A DNA stretch of 47,325 nt, taken from positions 1 through 47,325 of the forward strand of contig JACRLB010000031.1 in the NCBI GenBank assembly GCA_016235445.1, written 5' to 3'. Shown piece after piece: positions 12,655 to 44,016 of this stretch (position 1 is its first letter; each line of letters starts with the position of its first letter). Position numbers and translations under genes: made by a program. The stretch is from Chloroflexota bacterium. Its GTDB lineage: Bacteria > Chloroflexota > Anaerolineae > Anaerolineales > Villigracilaceae. The notes beneath the pieces are model-generated. The model made no database searches. It saw nothing but the letters and a program-made list of their open reading frames with translations, and was not told the origin of the DNA.

Positions 12655-12755
12655 GCACGAGATACAAGTTACGAGTTACGAATTACGAATTACGAGTTGC
12701 ATTACCACTTGTTTACCCGTTTACCTGTTTACTTGCATACCTGTTTGCCAACCTA
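12655..12755. repeat. Two short tandem-repeat tracts between corrinoid and mttB-like genes
   Basis: The first tract (about 12660-12700) repeats TTACGAGTTACGAAT-type units of 9 bp; the second (about 12708-12750) repeats GTTTACCTGT-type units of 10 bp. Both types recur elsewhere in the window (for example 26583-26663 and 28884-28940). Confidence 0.7.
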
Positions 12756-25420: not shown

Positions 25421-25455
25421 TGAATTGGAGATTAGAGATTGGAGATTGGAGATTT
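25421..25455. repeat. GGAGATT/AGAGATT tandem repeat
   Basis: Short units about 7 bp long fill the gap between the aminotransferase stop and the UbiA-like start. Same type as in fdhA and at 43972. Confidence 0.65.
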
Positions 25456-26570: not shown

Positions 26571-26582
26571 GGGGGATTCCTG

Positions 26583-26663
26583 TTGCGAGTTACGAGTTGC
26601 AAGTTACGAGTTACGAGTTACATGGCACCTATCTACGTGTCTACTTGTTTTCGTGTCTACGTG
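26583..26663. repeat. GAGTTAC and GTGTCTACTT tandem-repeat tracts
   Basis: First tract (about 26583-26622): 9-bp ACGAGTTAC units. Second tract (about 26630-26663): 10-bp GTGTCTACTT-type units. Both are intergenic and of the same types as at 12655 and 28876. Confidence 0.7.
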
Positions 26664-28875: not shown

Positions 28876-28944
28876 TTGTTAGTGATTAGTTACGAGTTAC
28901 GAGTTACGGGGTACGAGTTACGGGGTACGAGTTACGAGTTACTT
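28876..28944. repeat. GAGTTACGAGTTACGGGGTAC tandem-repeat tract
   Basis: About six 9-10 bp GAGTTAC/GGGGTAC units fill the gap between the SDR stop and the GT-C start. Confidence 0.75.
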
Positions 28945-32713: not shown

Positions 32714-32723
32714 CTGGGAGTTT

Positions 32724-32974
32724 GGGAGCCTGATGGGTTTCAAATCCATGTCATCCCTCGATGGGGCAACACCGTATAAAAAAGAGCCTCCGTGAGGAGA
32801 CTCTTTGGGAGCCTGATGGGTTTCGAACCCATGCATCCCTCGATGGGGCAACACCGTATAAAAATAGAGCCTCCGTGAGGAGACTCTTTGGGAGCCTGAT
32901 GGGTTTGGAACCCATGTCATCCCTCGATGGGGCAACACCGTATAAAAAAAGAGCCTCCATGAGGAGACTCTCTT
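32724..32974. repeat. Three tandem 83-85 bp units carrying the 3' end of tRNA-His and a terminator
   Basis: Units begin at 32724, 32807 and 32890. On the minus strand each consists of a terminator hairpin with T run, a conserved TATACGGTGTTGCCCCATCG segment, and a copy of the T-arm plus 3' acceptor strand of the neighbouring tRNA-His. The T-arm copies differ by a few bases. The D-arm and anticodon arm are missing, so they are not full tRNAs. Confidence 0.85.
32944..32972 (-). terminator. Rho-independent terminator after tRNA-His
   Basis: On the minus strand AGAGTCTCC, loop TCAT, GGAGGCTCT and a run of T. Near-identical hairpins recur in each of the next two tandem units (about 32860-32886 and 32780-32804). 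Confidence 0.85.
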
Positions 32975-32975
32975 G

Positions 32976-33048
32976 GGAGCCTGATGGGTTTCGAACCCAC
33001 AACATCCACATCCACAGTGTGGCGCTCTGCCGTTGAGCTACAGGCTCC
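32976..33048 (-). tRNA. tRNA-His (anticodon GTG)
   Basis: Full cloverleaf on the minus strand. The 7-bp acceptor stem GAGCCTG/CAGGCTC is perfect; the extra 5' G at -1 (33048) faces C73, the tRNA-His identity mark. The D-stem is GCTC/GAGC; the anticodon stem CCACA/TGTGG holds the loop CTGTGGA with anticodon GTG; the T-arm is GTGGG-TTCGAAA-CCCAT. The CCA end is not fully encoded. A terminator and three partial duplications of its 3' end follow. Confidence 0.95.
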
Positions 33049-35771: not shown

Positions 35772-35825
35772 CTTGCCCAAAAACCTGTGGCATCCTGTAA
35801 TGACCAAGGTAGAGAAGTGACCCTT

Positions 35826-36644
35826 ATGAATTTAAGAGAAATTGAAACCCGCCTTCAATCATTGATCGAAGTGGATTTGTTGAAAATGCTTCCCGGTAAA
35901 AAAGTGGAGGATGTGATCATTCAAAAATTGGCGGCGGCAATCCATCTCAACACGCTTGCCCTTGAGAACGGCAGTATGGCCGCGCCGGATGTCTACACTT
36001 TGGTGATGCACCCCATTACTTCCGGAAAATGGCGCGACCAGCAATTACTTACAGTTCTATTGCATTCGATCATCACGGTAGCGCAGGAAGCGGGTTTTAA
36101 GTTTACAATATCACCAACGATTACCGTATCAACGGATGAAAAAGTACCTTTAAATGATGCTGAGATCATTGCGTCTCATCGGATCGAATCTATGGCTGAA
36201 ACAAATGCAACCCCGCTGGACACTGGAAACCTTGACGATGGTAACAAACTCCCCGAAAATGCTTTTTTGATCGTGGAGGGAGTCAAGGTGTTTCCGCTTG
36301 TTCTTCCAGTTGTGAATATTGGCCGAAGGCTGGATAACCAGCTCATCATTGACGATCCGCGTGTATCGCGCAACCATGCCCAGCTTCGTACCATCAAGGG
36401 ACGCTACGTGGTTTTCGACTTGAACTCCACCGGGGGAACTTTTGTAAACGGTCAACGCACCAGCCAGAGCGTGCTTTATCCGGGGGATGTGATTTCGCTG
36501 GCAGGCGTGGCGCTTATTTTTGGACAGGACAACCCGCCTCCGCGCCCGGACTTGAAGGATACCTCTCCCCTGCCAAACGCCGCCGCTGACCGCCCGACTG
36601 CCGCATTAAAAGAACATTCCACGGCAAGACTCAAAAGAAAATGA
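35826..36644 (+). CDS. FhaA-like protein: DUF3662-like domain plus FHA domain
   Basis: Protein of 272 residues. The first 110 or so residues (RLQSLIEVDLLKMLPGKKVEDVIIQKLAAAI...APDVYTLVMHP) resemble the N-terminal domain of actinobacterial FhaA. The FHA domain (about 165-250) has the phosphothreonine-binding pattern: NIGRRLDNQLIIDD, VSRNHAQL and the D-x-x-S/T-x-N/G-G-T turn (DLNSTGGTFVNG). It would bind phosphorylated partner proteins. Its stop overlaps the next FHA gene by ATGA. The chosen ATG 35826 begins at the conserved region; the frame is open from 35787. In actinobacteria fhaA and fhaB lie next to rodA and pbpA, as here. Confidence 0.85.
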   Translation: MNLREIETRLQSLIEVDLLKMLPGKKVEDVIIQKLAAAIHLNTLALENGSMAAPDVYTLVMHPITSGKWRDQQLLTVLLHSIITVAQEAGFKFTISPTITVSTDEKVPLNDAEIIASHRIESMAETNATPLDTGNLDDGNKLPENAFLIVEGVKVFPLVLPVVNIGRRLDNQLIIDDPRVSRNHAQLRTIKGRYVVFDLNSTGGTFVNGQRTSQSVLYPGDVISLAGVALIFGQDNPPPRPDLKDTSPLPNAAADRPTAALKEHSTARLKRK

Positions 36645-37117
36645 GCGGCTCAATCGTCCTGGCCCTGCGGCTGACAACGGCTCTGGCGCTGTTTGGTTTT
36701 CTTGGGTGGGCGTTATTTTTTTTATTCCGCGAAGTACAAAAACAAGGCCTGTCGCTGGCAAATCGCCGCATTCCTGGAATCAGCTTTACGGTCAGGCAGG
36801 AGGCGGGGGCTTCATCGCTAAAATATTTTGCGCAGTCCGAGATCATTTTGGGGCGCGACCCCGGCTGTGACGTCCCATTGATTGACGATACGGTTTCCAC
36901 GCGTCATGCGCAGTTAACCTATCATCACAATCAATGGTGGCTGGAGGATTTGACATCCACAAATGGGACGTTGTTGAACGGAACCCTGGTGAGTATGCCC
37001 ACTGTGATCACATCTGGCGATGAAATAAAATGCGGGGGAACGCGCCTGACGGTAAGTTTGTCTGAAAATGTCGTCATCGAACCCACTCAAAAAATAGGTA
37101 AAAACAATGTCAAATAA
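36641..37117 (+). CDS. FhaB-like membrane-anchored FHA-domain protein
   Basis: Protein of 158 residues with one N-terminal membrane helix (about 6-30) and a cytoplasmic FHA domain (about 65-145). Key residues are visible: EIILGRDPGCDVPLIDD, VSTRHAQL and DLTSTNGTLLNG. The size and layout match FhaB of actinobacterial cell-wall loci. It overlaps FhaA upstream (ATGA) and mtnP downstream by 11 bases, so translation is coupled. No serine/threonine kinase or PP2C phosphatase lies in the window. Confidence 0.85.
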   Translation: MSGSIVLALRLTTALALFGFLGWALFFLFREVQKQGLSLANRRIPGISFTVRQEAGASSLKYFAQSEIILGRDPGCDVPLIDDTVSTRHAQLTYHHNQWWLEDLTSTNGTLLNGTLVSMPTVITSGDEIKCGGTRLTVSLSENVVIEPTQKIGKNNVK

Positions 37118-37973
37118 AGCAACCCTTGCGATCATTGGCGGCTCAGGCTTATATCAAATGAACGGGCTTGAAAAGGCGGAAGAAATCATTGTGAATACCC
37201 CCTTTGGAAAACCCAGCGCGCCGATCACAATTGGCACACTCGAAGGAGTGCGGGTTGCCTTTCTGGCAAGGCATGGGATCGGGCATCACATCACCCCAAC
37301 AGAAGTTCCATACCGGGCAAATATTTACGCGTTGAAGTCTCTCGGCGTGGAACGGATCGTCAGCATCAGCGCCTGTGGATCACTGCGCGAGGATTACGCG
37401 CCAGGGCATATCGTCATTCCCGACAATATCTTCGATTACACAAAAGACCGCGCGCGCTCCTTTTTTGGCGAGGGGCTGGTTGCCCACGTCAGCGTGGCGG
37501 ATCCGTTTTGCAATGACTTTTCAAACCACCTGGAGTTAGCAATCCGCGCAACCGGGGTGACAACACACCGCGGAGGTTCCTTCATCACCATTGAAGGACC
37601 ACGTTTTTCCACGAAGGCGGAATCGAACACCTACCGCGCCTGGGGCATGTCCATCATTGGCATGACCGCTTCCCCGGAAGCCTTCCTGGCCCGCGAAGCC
37701 GAGCTTTGCTACACAACCATGGCGCACGTGACAGATTATGACGTGTGGCACGAAAGTGAATCGCCAGTGACCGTGGAGATGGTGATCCAAACCCTCAATA
37801 AAAATACCGAAATAGCGCAGGAAGCCATCCGCAATTTGGCGCGTGAATTAAAGCCCGAGCGCGCCTGCACTTGCGGGCAGGCGCTGGCTACTGCGTTAAT
37901 CACCAACCCAAAGGTAATCCCCGCAGACACACGCAAAAAATTGGATTTGCTCGTCAGCAAATACCTGAATTAA
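37107..37973 (+). CDS. mtnP: S-methyl-5'-thioadenosine phosphorylase
   Basis: Nucleoside phosphorylase of 288 residues that splits methylthioadenosine with phosphate to adenine and 5-methylthioribose-1-phosphate. Signatures: IGGSGLY near the N terminus, RHGIGHHITPTEVPYRANI, the TIEGPRFSTKAES substrate loop, and MTASPEAFLAREAELCY. The full length is normal. It overlaps the FhaB-like gene by 11 bases, an unexpected partner for a salvage enzyme. Confidence 0.94.
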   Translation: MSNKATLAIIGGSGLYQMNGLEKAEEIIVNTPFGKPSAPITIGTLEGVRVAFLARHGIGHHITPTEVPYRANIYALKSLGVERIVSISACGSLREDYAPGHIVIPDNIFDYTKDRARSFFGEGLVAHVSVADPFCNDFSNHLELAIRATGVTTHRGGSFITIEGPRFSTKAESNTYRAWGMSIIGMTASPEAFLAREAELCYTTMAHVTDYDVWHESESPVTVEMVIQTLNKNTEIAQEAIRNLARELKPERACTCGQALATALITNPKVIPADTRKKLDLLVSKYLN

Positions 37974-38227: not shown

Positions 38228-40651
38228 ATGTATGATTTAACCCAGAGCCGCTTACTGCGCTGGTCGGCGTTCTTTCTATTCGCTCAATCCATCGTTCTCA
38301 CGCTTTCACCAGCCGTGAGAGAGCGCGCCTGGGATGTGGATTACAAAATATCCCACTGGGTTGGCTTTCTAGCCTGGGTTGTCCTGACCAACCTGGCGCA
38401 TCGCATCACCATAAAATATTTACCCGAACGCGATCCATACATCCTGCCATCCGCGGCCCTGCTCAGCGGATGGGGATTGCTCACCATCTGGCGGCTGGAT
38501 GAAGCCTTCGGCATCCGTCAAATGATCTGGCTTGGGGTAAGCATAAGCCTCCTGATCGTCGCGATCATATTCCTGAAAAACCTAAATTTTCTCAGAAGAT
38601 ACAAATACGTTTTCCTGAGCGGCGGCCTGCTCATCACCGCACTCACGTTGATCTTCGGCACAAATCCACTGGGAGGCGGCCCGCGCCTATGGCTGGGATG
38701 CTGTGGAGTTTATTTTCAACCCTCCGAACCGCTCAAACTTTTGCTTGTCATTTATCTCGCGGCTTACCTCGCAGACCGCGTCACCTTTCAATTATTTTCC
38801 TTCCCGCTTCTCGTGCCCACCCTGGTGGTTACCGGCCTCGCCCTTCTGCTTCTGCTTGTGCAACGCGACCTGGGCACGGCATCCATTTTCGTTTTCATTT
38901 TCACCATATTAATTTTCCTCGCAACAGGCAAACGACGGGTGCTATTAAGCGCCGCCACCTTCCTATCGCTCGCGCTTTTCCTCGGCTACTTCTTCATTGA
39001 TATTATCCGCGTGCGCATCATCGGCTGGGTCAACCCGTGGACAGACCCATCCGGCAACTCCTACCAGATCGTGCAATCCCTGCTTGCGGTTGCAAACGGC
39101 GGCGCCATTGGAAGAGGGCTGGGGATTGGAAGCCCACTGCTCGTGCCAGTTGCGATTTCGGATTTCATCTACGCGGCGATAGCAGAAGAAACGGGTCTTT
39201 TCGGGACTTTGAGCCTGCTTGCTCTCATCTGGCTGATTCTAGCCCGCGGCATGATCGTGGCCCTGCGCGCCGCAGACAGATTCCGCCGCTACCTCGCCGC
39301 CGGCGTGGTCGCTTATCTCGGCATTCAAAGCCTGCTCATCATCGGCGGGAATATACGCCTGCTACCCCTCACTGGCGTAACCCTGCCATTCGTCTCGTAT
39401 GGCGGCTCGTCGTTGCTGACATCCTACATTGCACTATTTCTGCTTCTCACCATCAGCAACGTGGAGGATGCCGAACCAGCGCTGTTGCAGGATCCAAAAC
39501 CATACACCATTCTGGCGGGCATTCTTGCGCTGGGTCTTGCCGCCATTTCATTAAGCACGGCCTGGTGGGCAATCGTCCGCGGGCCAGACCTGCTCCTGCG
39601 CACAGATAACCCCCGCCGCACCATCGCAGACAGATACGTCCCACGCGGTGAATTGGTGGATCGGGACAACCAGCCCATCAACATCACCAACGGAGAAAGC
39701 GGCTCTTACCAACGAGTTTACCTATACCCCGAACTCGCCCCAGTTACTGGATACACGCACCCCGTTTATGGACAGGCAGGCATCGAAGCCACCCTTGATA
39801 ATTATCTGCGAGGATTGCAGGGAAACCCAACCAGCCTCATCGTGTGGGAGCAATTGATCTACGGCACTCCCCCTGCCGGGCTGGATGTGCGCCTCAGCCT
39901 CGATCTTGATTTGCAAGCCACGGCAGACCAATTACTGCAAGGCCATAGCGGCGCGATCATGTTGATGAATGCAGAGACAGGAGAAATTCTCGTGATGGCC
40001 TCTCACCCAACTTATGACCCGAACAAGCTGGATGAAGAAGGTGAAACGCTTTCACAGGATGAAACCTCCCCTTTGCTCAACCGCGCTTCACAGGGGTTGT
40101 ATCCAGTTGGCACAGCGCTTACGCCTTTGATTCAAGCAGAGTTCGGAGACAAGCCGCCATCGAACTCTGAATTGCAAGGGTTTTATGAAAGGCTTGGCTT
40201 GTTTCAAACTCCTGAAATCAATCTGCCTGTTGCACCAGAGGAAACGTTTGACTCACTGCAAGGCTTGCGAATCAGCCCATTGCAGGCGGGCATTGCGGCG
40301 GCCGCATTGAGCTACAAAGGGATTTCCCCATCCCCGCGAATTGCAACCGCCGTCAACACACCTCAGCAGGGATGGGTGGTGCTTCCAGCGTTGAACCAGC
40401 CCGTCGAGGTGATTCAATCGTCGGCGGCGAATGAGGCGGCTTTGTTCTTCATCCAGGAAGGGAAGCCGTATTGGAGTCACAGCGGGCTGGCCAGTGCGGA
40501 TGGGTCAACCGTCACCTGGCTGTTGGCAGGGACTTTGCCTGATTGGCAGGGTGCGCCGCTGGCGCTGGTGGTGGCGCTGGAAGAAAATAATATTTTTATT
40601 GCAAAAAGAATCGGGGATAATCTTTTGAATGCGGCGGGGTTGAATCAATAG
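38228..40651 (+). CDS. RodA/FtsW (SEDS) glycosyltransferase fused to a degenerate class B penicillin-binding domain
   Basis: Fusion of 807 residues. Residues of about 10-415 are a SEDS peptidoglycan polymerase with about ten membrane helices and the family motifs NPWTDPSGNSYQIVQSLLA, DFIYAAIAEETG and LTGVTLPFVSYGGSSLL. After another membrane helix (about 435-455) comes a PbpA/PBP2-like part: NPRRTIADRYVPRGELVDRDNQ and LDLQATADQLLQGHSGAIMLMNAETGEILVMASHPTYDPN. The transpeptidase residues are lost: the SxxK position reads T629-A-L-T632, the KTG position reads H751-S-G, and the stretch that should hold SxN is shortened. The domain is thus probably a built-in activator rather than a crosslinking enzyme. 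rodA and pbpA are separate neighbours in actinobacteria. Confidence 0.9.
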   Translation: MYDLTQSRLLRWSAFFLFAQSIVLTLSPAVRERAWDVDYKISHWVGFLAWVVLTNLAHRITIKYLPERDPYILPSAALLSGWGLLTIWRLDEAFGIRQMIWLGVSISLLIVAIIFLKNLNFLRRYKYVFLSGGLLITALTLIFGTNPLGGGPRLWLGCCGVYFQPSEPLKLLLVIYLAAYLADRVTFQLFSFPLLVPTLVVTGLALLLLLVQRDLGTASIFVFIFTILIFLATGKRRVLLSAATFLSLALFLGYFFIDIIRVRIIGWVNPWTDPSGNSYQIVQSLLAVANGGAIGRGLGIGSPLLVPVAISDFIYAAIAEETGLFGTLSLLALIWLILARGMIVALRAADRFRRYLAAGVVAYLGIQSLLIIGGNIRLLPLTGVTLPFVSYGGSSLLTSYIALFLLLTISNVEDAEPALLQDPKPYTILAGILALGLAAISLSTAWWAIVRGPDLLLRTDNPRRTIADRYVPRGELVDRDNQPINITNGESGSYQRVYLYPELAPVTGYTHPVYGQAGIEATLDNYLRGLQGNPTSLIVWEQLIYGTPPAGLDVRLSLDLDLQATADQLLQGHSGAIMLMNAETGEILVMASHPTYDPNKLDEEGETLSQDETSPLLNRASQGLYPVGTALTPLIQAEFGDKPPSNSELQGFYERLGLFQTPEINLPVAPEETFDSLQGLRISPLQAGIAAAALSYKGISPSPRIATAVNTPQQGWVVLPALNQPVEVIQSSAANEAALFFIQEGKPYWSHSGLASADGSTVTWLLAGTLPDWQGAPLALVVALEENNIFIAKRIGDNLLNAAGLNQ

Positions 40652-43491: not shown

Positions 43492-43968
43492 ATGAAACTT
43501 CCATCACACCTTTATCTCGACCGACAAAACATCCCCTACGAAGCGCGCAGTTTCCCGCCCGAAACGGAGAAAGGCGCGGCGAATGTGGCGCGCGCGCTGG
43601 GTTTCCTGGAGCGGCAGGCCGTGAAGACTTTGATCTTTCAAGTGGATACGGGTGAATGTGTGTTGGTGATGCTCGGCGGCGATCAAAATGCGATTTCTGG
43701 AAATCTCAAAAAGGCGATTGGCTCACGCAATATTCAAATGGCACCGCCTGAGACAGTGAAGCAAATAACGGGATACATCATCGGCTCCATCCCCGCCTTT
43801 GGCTGGCAGGCAGAGGGATTCAGAACCTTCCTCGAAGCGAGCCTGATGAATGAACCCATCCTCGGCACGGGGGCGGGTCAATGGGGCGAGGAGATCATGA
43901 TCACGCCCGAGAATTTGGTGAAGGCGAGCAAGGCGAGTGTGGTGAATTTGACGGTGAGGGTGGGGTAG
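43492..43968 (+). CDS. YbaK/EbsC-family aminoacyl-tRNA deacylase
   Basis: Protein of 158 residues, the usual length of YbaK-type domains that hydrolyse mischarged aminoacyl-tRNA (for example Cys-tRNA-Pro). The typical pattern is present: AANVARALGFLERQAVKTLIFQVD, LVMLGGDQNA, and GYIIGSIPAFGW with a Gly-rich end ILGTGAGQWGEEIMITPENLVK. Its start follows the transporter stop by 25 bp, so they may share a transcript. Exact tRNA specificity is unknown. Confidence 0.85.
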   Translation: MKLPSHLYLDRQNIPYEARSFPPETEKGAANVARALGFLERQAVKTLIFQVDTGECVLVMLGGDQNAISGNLKKAIGSRNIQMAPPETVKQITGYIIGSIPAFGWQAEGFRTFLEASLMNEPILGTGAGQWGEEIMITPENLVKASKASVVNLTVRVG

Positions 43969-43971
43969 AGG

Positions 43972-44016
43972 TTGGGGATCGGAGATTGGAGAATTGGAGA
44001 TTGGGGATTGGAGATA
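43972..44016. repeat. GGAGATTGGAGAATTGGAGATT tandem repeat
   Basis: About five GGAGATT-type units of 7-8 bp directly after the YbaK-like gene; same type as in fdhA and at 25421. Confidence 0.7.

Follow-up and report, generated by a model that had tools for sequence, protein, structure and literature searches.

A SEDS polymerase fused to a class B PBP module lacking the transpeptidase motifs in Chloroflexota

Results

The window, a 47,325-nucleotide stretch of DNA from a Chloroflexota bacterium (contig JACRLB010000031.1), contains one open reading frame encoding a SEDS polymerase joined to a class B penicillin-binding protein (bPBP), downstream of genes for two FHA proteins and a nucleoside phosphorylase family protein:

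35787..36644, + strand: FHA protein, syntenic neighbour (PF00498; PF12401 (FhaA_N) sub-threshold, 20.8 bits against a cut-off of 25)
36641..37117, + strand: second FHA protein, syntenic neighbour (PF00498)
37107..37973, + strand: nucleoside phosphorylase family protein, syntenic neighbour (PF01048)
38228-40651, + strand: fusion ORF, SEDS plus class B PBP, 807 aa in a single frame
38228..39460, + strand: SEDS polymerase domain, residues 1-411 (Pfam PF01098; model helices; match to FtsW 8bh1_A)
39161..39163, + strand: D312, SEDS catalytic aspartate (PDB alignment; conservation in SEDS rows)
39497..39577, + strand: class B PBP TM helix, residues 424-450, joined directly to the SEDS domain (model helix)
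39608..39943, + strand: pedestal / PBP_dimer_2 region, residues 461-572 (PF21922 at 473-553; dN/dS)
39944..40651, + strand: pseudo-transpeptidase domain, residues 573-807 and the stop codon (PBPA fold with pedestal; motifs absent)
40112..40123, + strand: degenerate SxxK site, T629-A-L-T632 (alignment with intact PBPs)
40478..40486, + strand: degenerate KTG site, H751-S-G753 (alignment with intact PBPs)

The phosphorylase family neighbour (37107..37973) is a presumed MTAP. A Pfam scan found no Ser/Thr kinase or phosphatase gene among six neighbourhood ORFs, and a profile search found no PASTA domain in the window's genome. Elsewhere in the window, 3.3 tandem copies of an 83-base unit (32721-32999) overlap the end of a tRNA-His gene (32975-33047, - strand), the unit looking by eye like the 3' part of this tRNA plus a hairpin, and short arrays of 7-base repeats are scattered at 12657-12698, 25424-25454, 26582-26621, 28888-28942 and 43968-44015.

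A preliminary description of this DNA had proposed that a SEDS protein and a class B PBP form one chain here, and the single 807-aa frame with Pfam domains of both bears this out. The FTSW_RODA_SPOVE profile matches residues 94-411 (E 5e-69, 233.3 bits against a cut-off of 26.4), PBP_dimer_2 (the PBPA dimerisation domain) matches residues 473-553 (E 6e-8), and the Transpeptidase profile aligns only over its positions 1-42 of 299, at residues 575-627. Across a 37-row alignment of the window fusion and its named-record relatives, the SEDS and transpeptidase profiles matched in 37/37 rows and the PBPA dimerisation profile in 36/37.

An AlphaFold2 model built from the same alignment has a mean pLDDT of 83.9 and a pTM of 0.77. 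Most head residues score 85-95, and two loops of low confidence (145-163 and 186-193) lie in the SEDS part. Residues 68-416 match P. aeruginosa FtsW (8bh1_A; Z 35.0, rmsd 2.4, 322 aligned of 348), and two extra helices (2-32 and 43-64) lie N-terminal to this core. Pedestal and head together (residues 468-805) match M. tuberculosis PBPA (3upo_A; Z 37.5, rmsd 2.8, 332 aligned of 442; both matches from Foldseek and a second structural comparison). The proposal that pedestal and fold are kept is thus upheld by the structure prediction, which gives the head a PBP transpeptidase fold that lacks the catalytic residues.

The active-site residues of the SEDS domain are intact. E167, K170, Q280, Q283 and D312 are invariant across the 37-row alignment of fused rows, and the catalytic Asp is found in 145/146 SEDS rows, the remaining row having X. 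From the PDB alignment we take D312 to be the equivalent of T. thermophilus RodA D255, a residue number counted on that alignment. In E. coli the catalytic residue is D262 according to the available text of PMC10449877.

All three catalytic motifs of the transpeptidase part are lost, as the preliminary description had claimed. Alignment of the window fusion with intact PBPs places TALT in the SxxK columns and HSG in the KTG columns, with the SxN segment absent, and a pattern scan detected no SxxK, SxN or K/R-T/S-G anywhere in this part. The domain is 235 aa long; from the same alignment column to the protein end, 26 intact rows have a median of 329 aa.

Relatives were collected through a class-level search of 249 genomes (matches at E <= 1e-30 in 211, other SEDS proteins counted in), a phylum-level search of 301 genomes (matches at E <= 1e-40 in 197) and a named-record collection of 41 loci, 40 belonging to the fusion's family, under the taxa Anaerolineales, Anaerolineae, Anaerolineaceae, Chloroflexi, Longilinea, Anaerolinea and Herpetosiphon. 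A further 80 stretches were hand-picked among the matches listed from the class and phylum searches, and the set is not a census. Left out of L011-L081 were L039 and L040 (in-frame stops), L078 (broken), L057 (partial), L081 (other family), L044 and L065 (copies of L012 and L021) and L011 (the window fusion itself); members of the window's family or order in G418, G433, G441, G449, G464, G472, G485, G504 and G511 are not in the classified set. SEDS rows with no PBP found alongside (13 in the 91-row tree described below), some of them at contig ends, stand outside the classification. The rows are related, overlap partly between collections and are not independent.

Classification by the SxxK columns covered 128 PBP parts fused to or adjoining a SEDS protein of this family. 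It yielded 81 fused dead rows (the window's included), one fused intact row (L143), 25 separate intact rows and 21 separate dead rows, three of which are unsure (L136, cut by a contig end; L097, with split frames; L121, with KTG kept and an odd SxxK region), leaving 18. SxxK is therefore missing in 81/82 classified fused rows, the window's own row among them, so that the alignment of homologues finds the motif loss conserved; no close homologue with an intact SxxK occurs among the classified fused rows from within the class. One fused dead row, L142, comes from outside the class, as does L143 (G373:C3), whose SEDS-PBP fusion keeps SxxK, SxN and a KTG-like motif; fusion thus does not require loss. 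The intact orthologues farther off are separate genes plus this one fusion, as descent from an active enzyme predicts. In a separate case, the SEDS ORF of L101 (G114:C23) is 550 aa long and stops soon after entering the dimerisation region, while G067 (L095), of the same genus, has the full fusion.

Across 102 dead rows, the old Ser position is mainly T (32), A (17) or S (10), and the old Lys position is mainly Q (26), L (23), E (14) or R (13), with K once. Longer dead members often have x-C-P at the SxN position, and the window's family has this segment deleted. KTG, scored by pattern and not by alignment column, is present in 25/26 intact rows, the exception being L141, which is cut by its contig; a KTG-like match occurs in 2/102 dead rows, L121 and L028. 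L121 (G006:C189) is a separate PBP that keeps KTGTAQ but has an unusual Glu-rich stretch in place of SxxK, perhaps through an assembly fault.

Two ways in which catalysis might have persisted were considered and rejected. A shifted SxxK is not indicated: some S-x-x-K occurs elsewhere in 21/102 dead heads, at varying positions, and none in the window fusion, although eight rows of the window's family do share one stray position, at offset 167. Nor is residual catalysis by T-x-x-K, as the old Lys position holds K in 1/102 dead rows (L058, TALK). An assembly or sequencing error, or misplaced motifs, might still be invoked, since many of the genomes are fragmented and most named records are MAGs. 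We reject an error for the window and regard this explanation as hardly credible: the same loss recurs in the fused rows tallied above, single-contig genomes included (G027, G202 (L013, L014) and G228 (L088)), and the window fusion's head holds none of the three motifs at any position.

In 40 window-group loci (L041-L080, some cut by contig ends), FhaA-like neighbours are found in 32/40, FHA neighbours in 35/40 and the phosphorylase in 33/40. The FHA, FHA and phosphorylase neighbours, whole or in part, are common to many separate-intact, separate-dead and fused-dead loci, and because of these common neighbours we read the three kinds as one orthologous locus. Three SEDS trees were compared. 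The 91-row tree is without rows at least 72% identical to a kept one (L143 among them) and without the short L093; the 74-row tree is additionally without L136 and L097; L143 is included in the 80-row tree. The 91-row and 74-row trees need 3 dead/intact and 6 fused/separate changes, and the 80-row tree needs 2 and 8. Forcing the 50 dead rows other than L142 to one side of a branch in the 74-row tree raised the likelihood by 10.2 over the unconstrained quick tree (AU p 0.709). Rooting relied on the genome's two other SEDS proteins, whose long branches make it weak, and independent pairs were too few for a link from fusion to loss. The data are compatible with, without proving, one loss in the class and one outside it (L142), followed by several fusions, and the existence of separate dead rows suggests that loss came before fusion.

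The dead head is under purifying selection and is not decaying freely. Median dN/dS among 24 window-group genes (276 pairs, less those whose dS was saturated or unusable) comes to 0.085 in the SEDS domain (209 pairs), 0.160 in the linker with the TM part (198), 0.078 in the pedestal (145) and 0.141 in the head (167); as the pairs share ancestry, these values are descriptive. The pedestal is about as slow as the SEDS domain, and the head varies more than the pedestal does. In the closest pair, the window fusion and L041, the head has a dN of 0.023 and a dS of 0.241. A decaying gene whose PBP part is on its way out would agree with the shortened head in the window's family and the broken copy in L078, but the low median of the head over its 167 usable pairs (0.14) and the open frames of dead heads in more than 10 family codes make decay very improbable.

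A head kept by selection could instead serve chiefly as a binding module, for stem peptides, nascent glycan or a docking PBP or hydrolase, with no activation of the SEDS domain. The persistence of the PBP fold (in the model) and of purifying selection after the motifs have gone would fit such a role, and in RodA-PBP2 the placement of the PBP2 head has a regulatory role of its own according to the available text of PMC10257715. Peptide binding in the old groove looks weak, however, given the deletion of the SxN segment in the window's family, and it is the pedestal and not the head that is better conserved; we consider this role unlikely.

The window's genome (G000) has three SEDS genes and seven transpeptidase matches. 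Three bPBPs carry SxxK and KTG: an FtsI-like protein (C26) and a PBP2-like protein (C13), their names taken from neighbourhood and domains rather than from an equivalog scan, and a protein with MecA_N, dimer and transpeptidase domains (C45). Both motifs are also present in two class A PBPs, on C7 and C13. The remaining two matches are the window fusion and, on C49, a class A homologue with degenerate motifs. The two further SEDS genes each share a contig with an intact-motif bPBP (RodA/PBP2-like on C13, FtsW/FtsI-like on C26). In five further genomes with dead fusions, 30/33 listed PBP matches were inspected for SxxK and KTG, and loci with both number 3 in G027, 3 in G202, 4 in G067, 6 in G228 and 2 in G009 by a strict pattern that misses some and with some ORFs picked wrongly. 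Since the five other PBPs of G000 and those in the further genomes keep their motifs, enzymes for cross-linking are available.

That this is a third SEDS gene, in a genome where the two others already adjoin bPBPs, could be taken to place the protein outside ordinary peptidoglycan synthesis, acting on another lipid-linked glycan or as a decoy that sequesters lipid II or restrains other synthases. The window fusion also falls short of the NCBIfam equivalog cut-offs for FtsW (240.9 against 337.5) and RodA (213.1 against 336.7). We find such a role quite improbable, as its SEDS catalytic residues are unchanged and orthologous pairs with intact motifs occupy the same neighbourhood.

MecA_N proteins occur in 51/55 genomes with a dead partner vs 11/25 with an intact one (Fisher p 4.5e-6), an association between loss and MecA_N that gains no support from phylogenetically independent pairs. 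The MecA_N profile search matches in B. subtilis as it does in G000.

The class A homologue on C49 (L007, G000:C49:70521-73073, - strand) has degenerate motifs in both domains: AVADPQF where its paralogue's GT51 region has ATEDKDF, SSLD at SxxK, NDYQ at SxN and KVG at KTG. Among its relatives L163-L186, transpeptidase motifs are degenerate in 14 rows from the window's genus (L163-L176) and in L177 and L178 from the order; L179, L180 and L182 keep SxxK, SxN and KTG. With this second degenerate homologue in the genus, its wall synthesis may make general use of pseudo-PBPs.

Discussion

We propose that in the fusion a pseudo-transpeptidase, tethered to a SEDS polymerase, activates or positions that polymerase, with cross-linking supplied in trans by another PBP, a reading to which we assign a probability of roughly 0.66. 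The gene product would be the genome's third SEDS polymerase, attached to what is left of its own PbpA-like class B partner. Of that partner, the TM helix and pedestal would still hold and activate the SEDS domain, and the head would keep a transpeptidase fold in which acylation and cross-linking are presumably impossible. Another PBP would then cross-link the glycan strand made by the fusion, the best candidates being the MecA_N-type bPBP on C45 or one of the class A PBPs; the choice of MecA_N as the trans partner is a guess, because independent pairs lend it no support. On these assumptions the complex may also be insensitive to beta-lactams.

The suggestion that the dead module most likely serves to activate and position its SEDS polymerase in a fixed way is drawn from work on RodA-PBP2, SpoVD, PBP2b and PBP1. 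RodA is stimulated by the PBP2 TM helix, both in a full fusion and in a truncated form, and the TM helix alone suffices (PMC10449877). This sufficiency gives no reason for the fusion to keep pedestal and head, and it counts against the activator reading. Opening of the PBP2 head has been argued to switch RodA on (PMC10257715). Catalysis by C. difficile SpoVD is dispensable for asymmetric division, with PBP3 substituting in part, and catalysis by B. subtilis PBP2b is dispensable because PBP3 supplies it (PMC12713402). In S. aureus, PBP1 does more than catalyse, yet its transpeptidase activity is essential as well, and is described as crucial for MSSA and not for MRSA (PMC9426605); dispensability of partner catalysis is therefore not general.

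A broader statement is that across the class (Anaerolineae, going by named-record titles) and once outside it a SEDS polymerase has long kept a dead class B PBP and repeatedly fused to it. The outcome would be a polymerase that is insensitive to beta-lactams and carries its own pseudoenzyme regulator, with a natural uncoupling of polymerisation from cross-linking, the latter falling to other PBPs. This statement seems to us evenly balanced between true and false. Whether class B PBPs activate SEDS proteins without the help of their own catalysis has so far been probed with point mutants and truncations. The present family is seemingly a natural experiment on the same question, with the transpeptidase motifs gone but the TM helix, pedestal and fold still in place. 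In this family one could ask what the head does, how futile uncross-linked glycan is avoided and whether the polymerase continues to work under beta-lactams.

The SEDS-PBP fusion as such is already in print: natural single-ORF fusions exist, and the available text of PMC10449877 cites the Rhodococcus RHA1 genome for them, while the parts of PMC8406291 and PMC8262863 that were available contain no mention of a natural SEDS-PBP fusion. A literature search, in which subscription papers and bioRxiv preprints lay largely outside the scope and only parts of the sources were available, found no natural, conserved, catalytically dead SEDS partner, which makes for a weak negative.

Compared with known systems, the window fusion shares with RodA-PBP2 and FtsW-FtsI a SEDS core with the catalytic Asp and a bPBP TM helix, pedestal and transpeptidase fold. 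It differs in being one chain, in having lost SxxK, SxN and KTG, and in scoring below the FtsW and RodA NCBIfam cut-offs.

The actinobacterial RodA-PbpA pair adjoins FHA genes, with kinase and phosphatase genes in the operon. The window resembles that locus in its PBPA dimerisation domain, in having PBPA as its best structural match (3lo7, 3un7, 3upo) and in its FHA neighbours. Unlike it, the window has a phosphorylase between the FHA and SEDS genes, and its SEDS and PBP parts are fused, with the motifs lost.

The Rhodococcus RHA1 SEDS-PBP fusion, compared by its description only, in the available text of PMC10449877, is likewise a single ORF; in the present set, the only fusion with intact motifs is L143, from outside the class. 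The B. subtilis PBP2b/PBP3 and C. difficile SpoVD/PBP3 systems resemble our proposal in that the SEDS partner is needed as a protein and cross-linking can come from another bPBP. In C. difficile SpoVD, however, a mutation was used to remove a catalytic serine that is naturally present (PMC12713402, available text), whereas here the loss is natural and common to many families.
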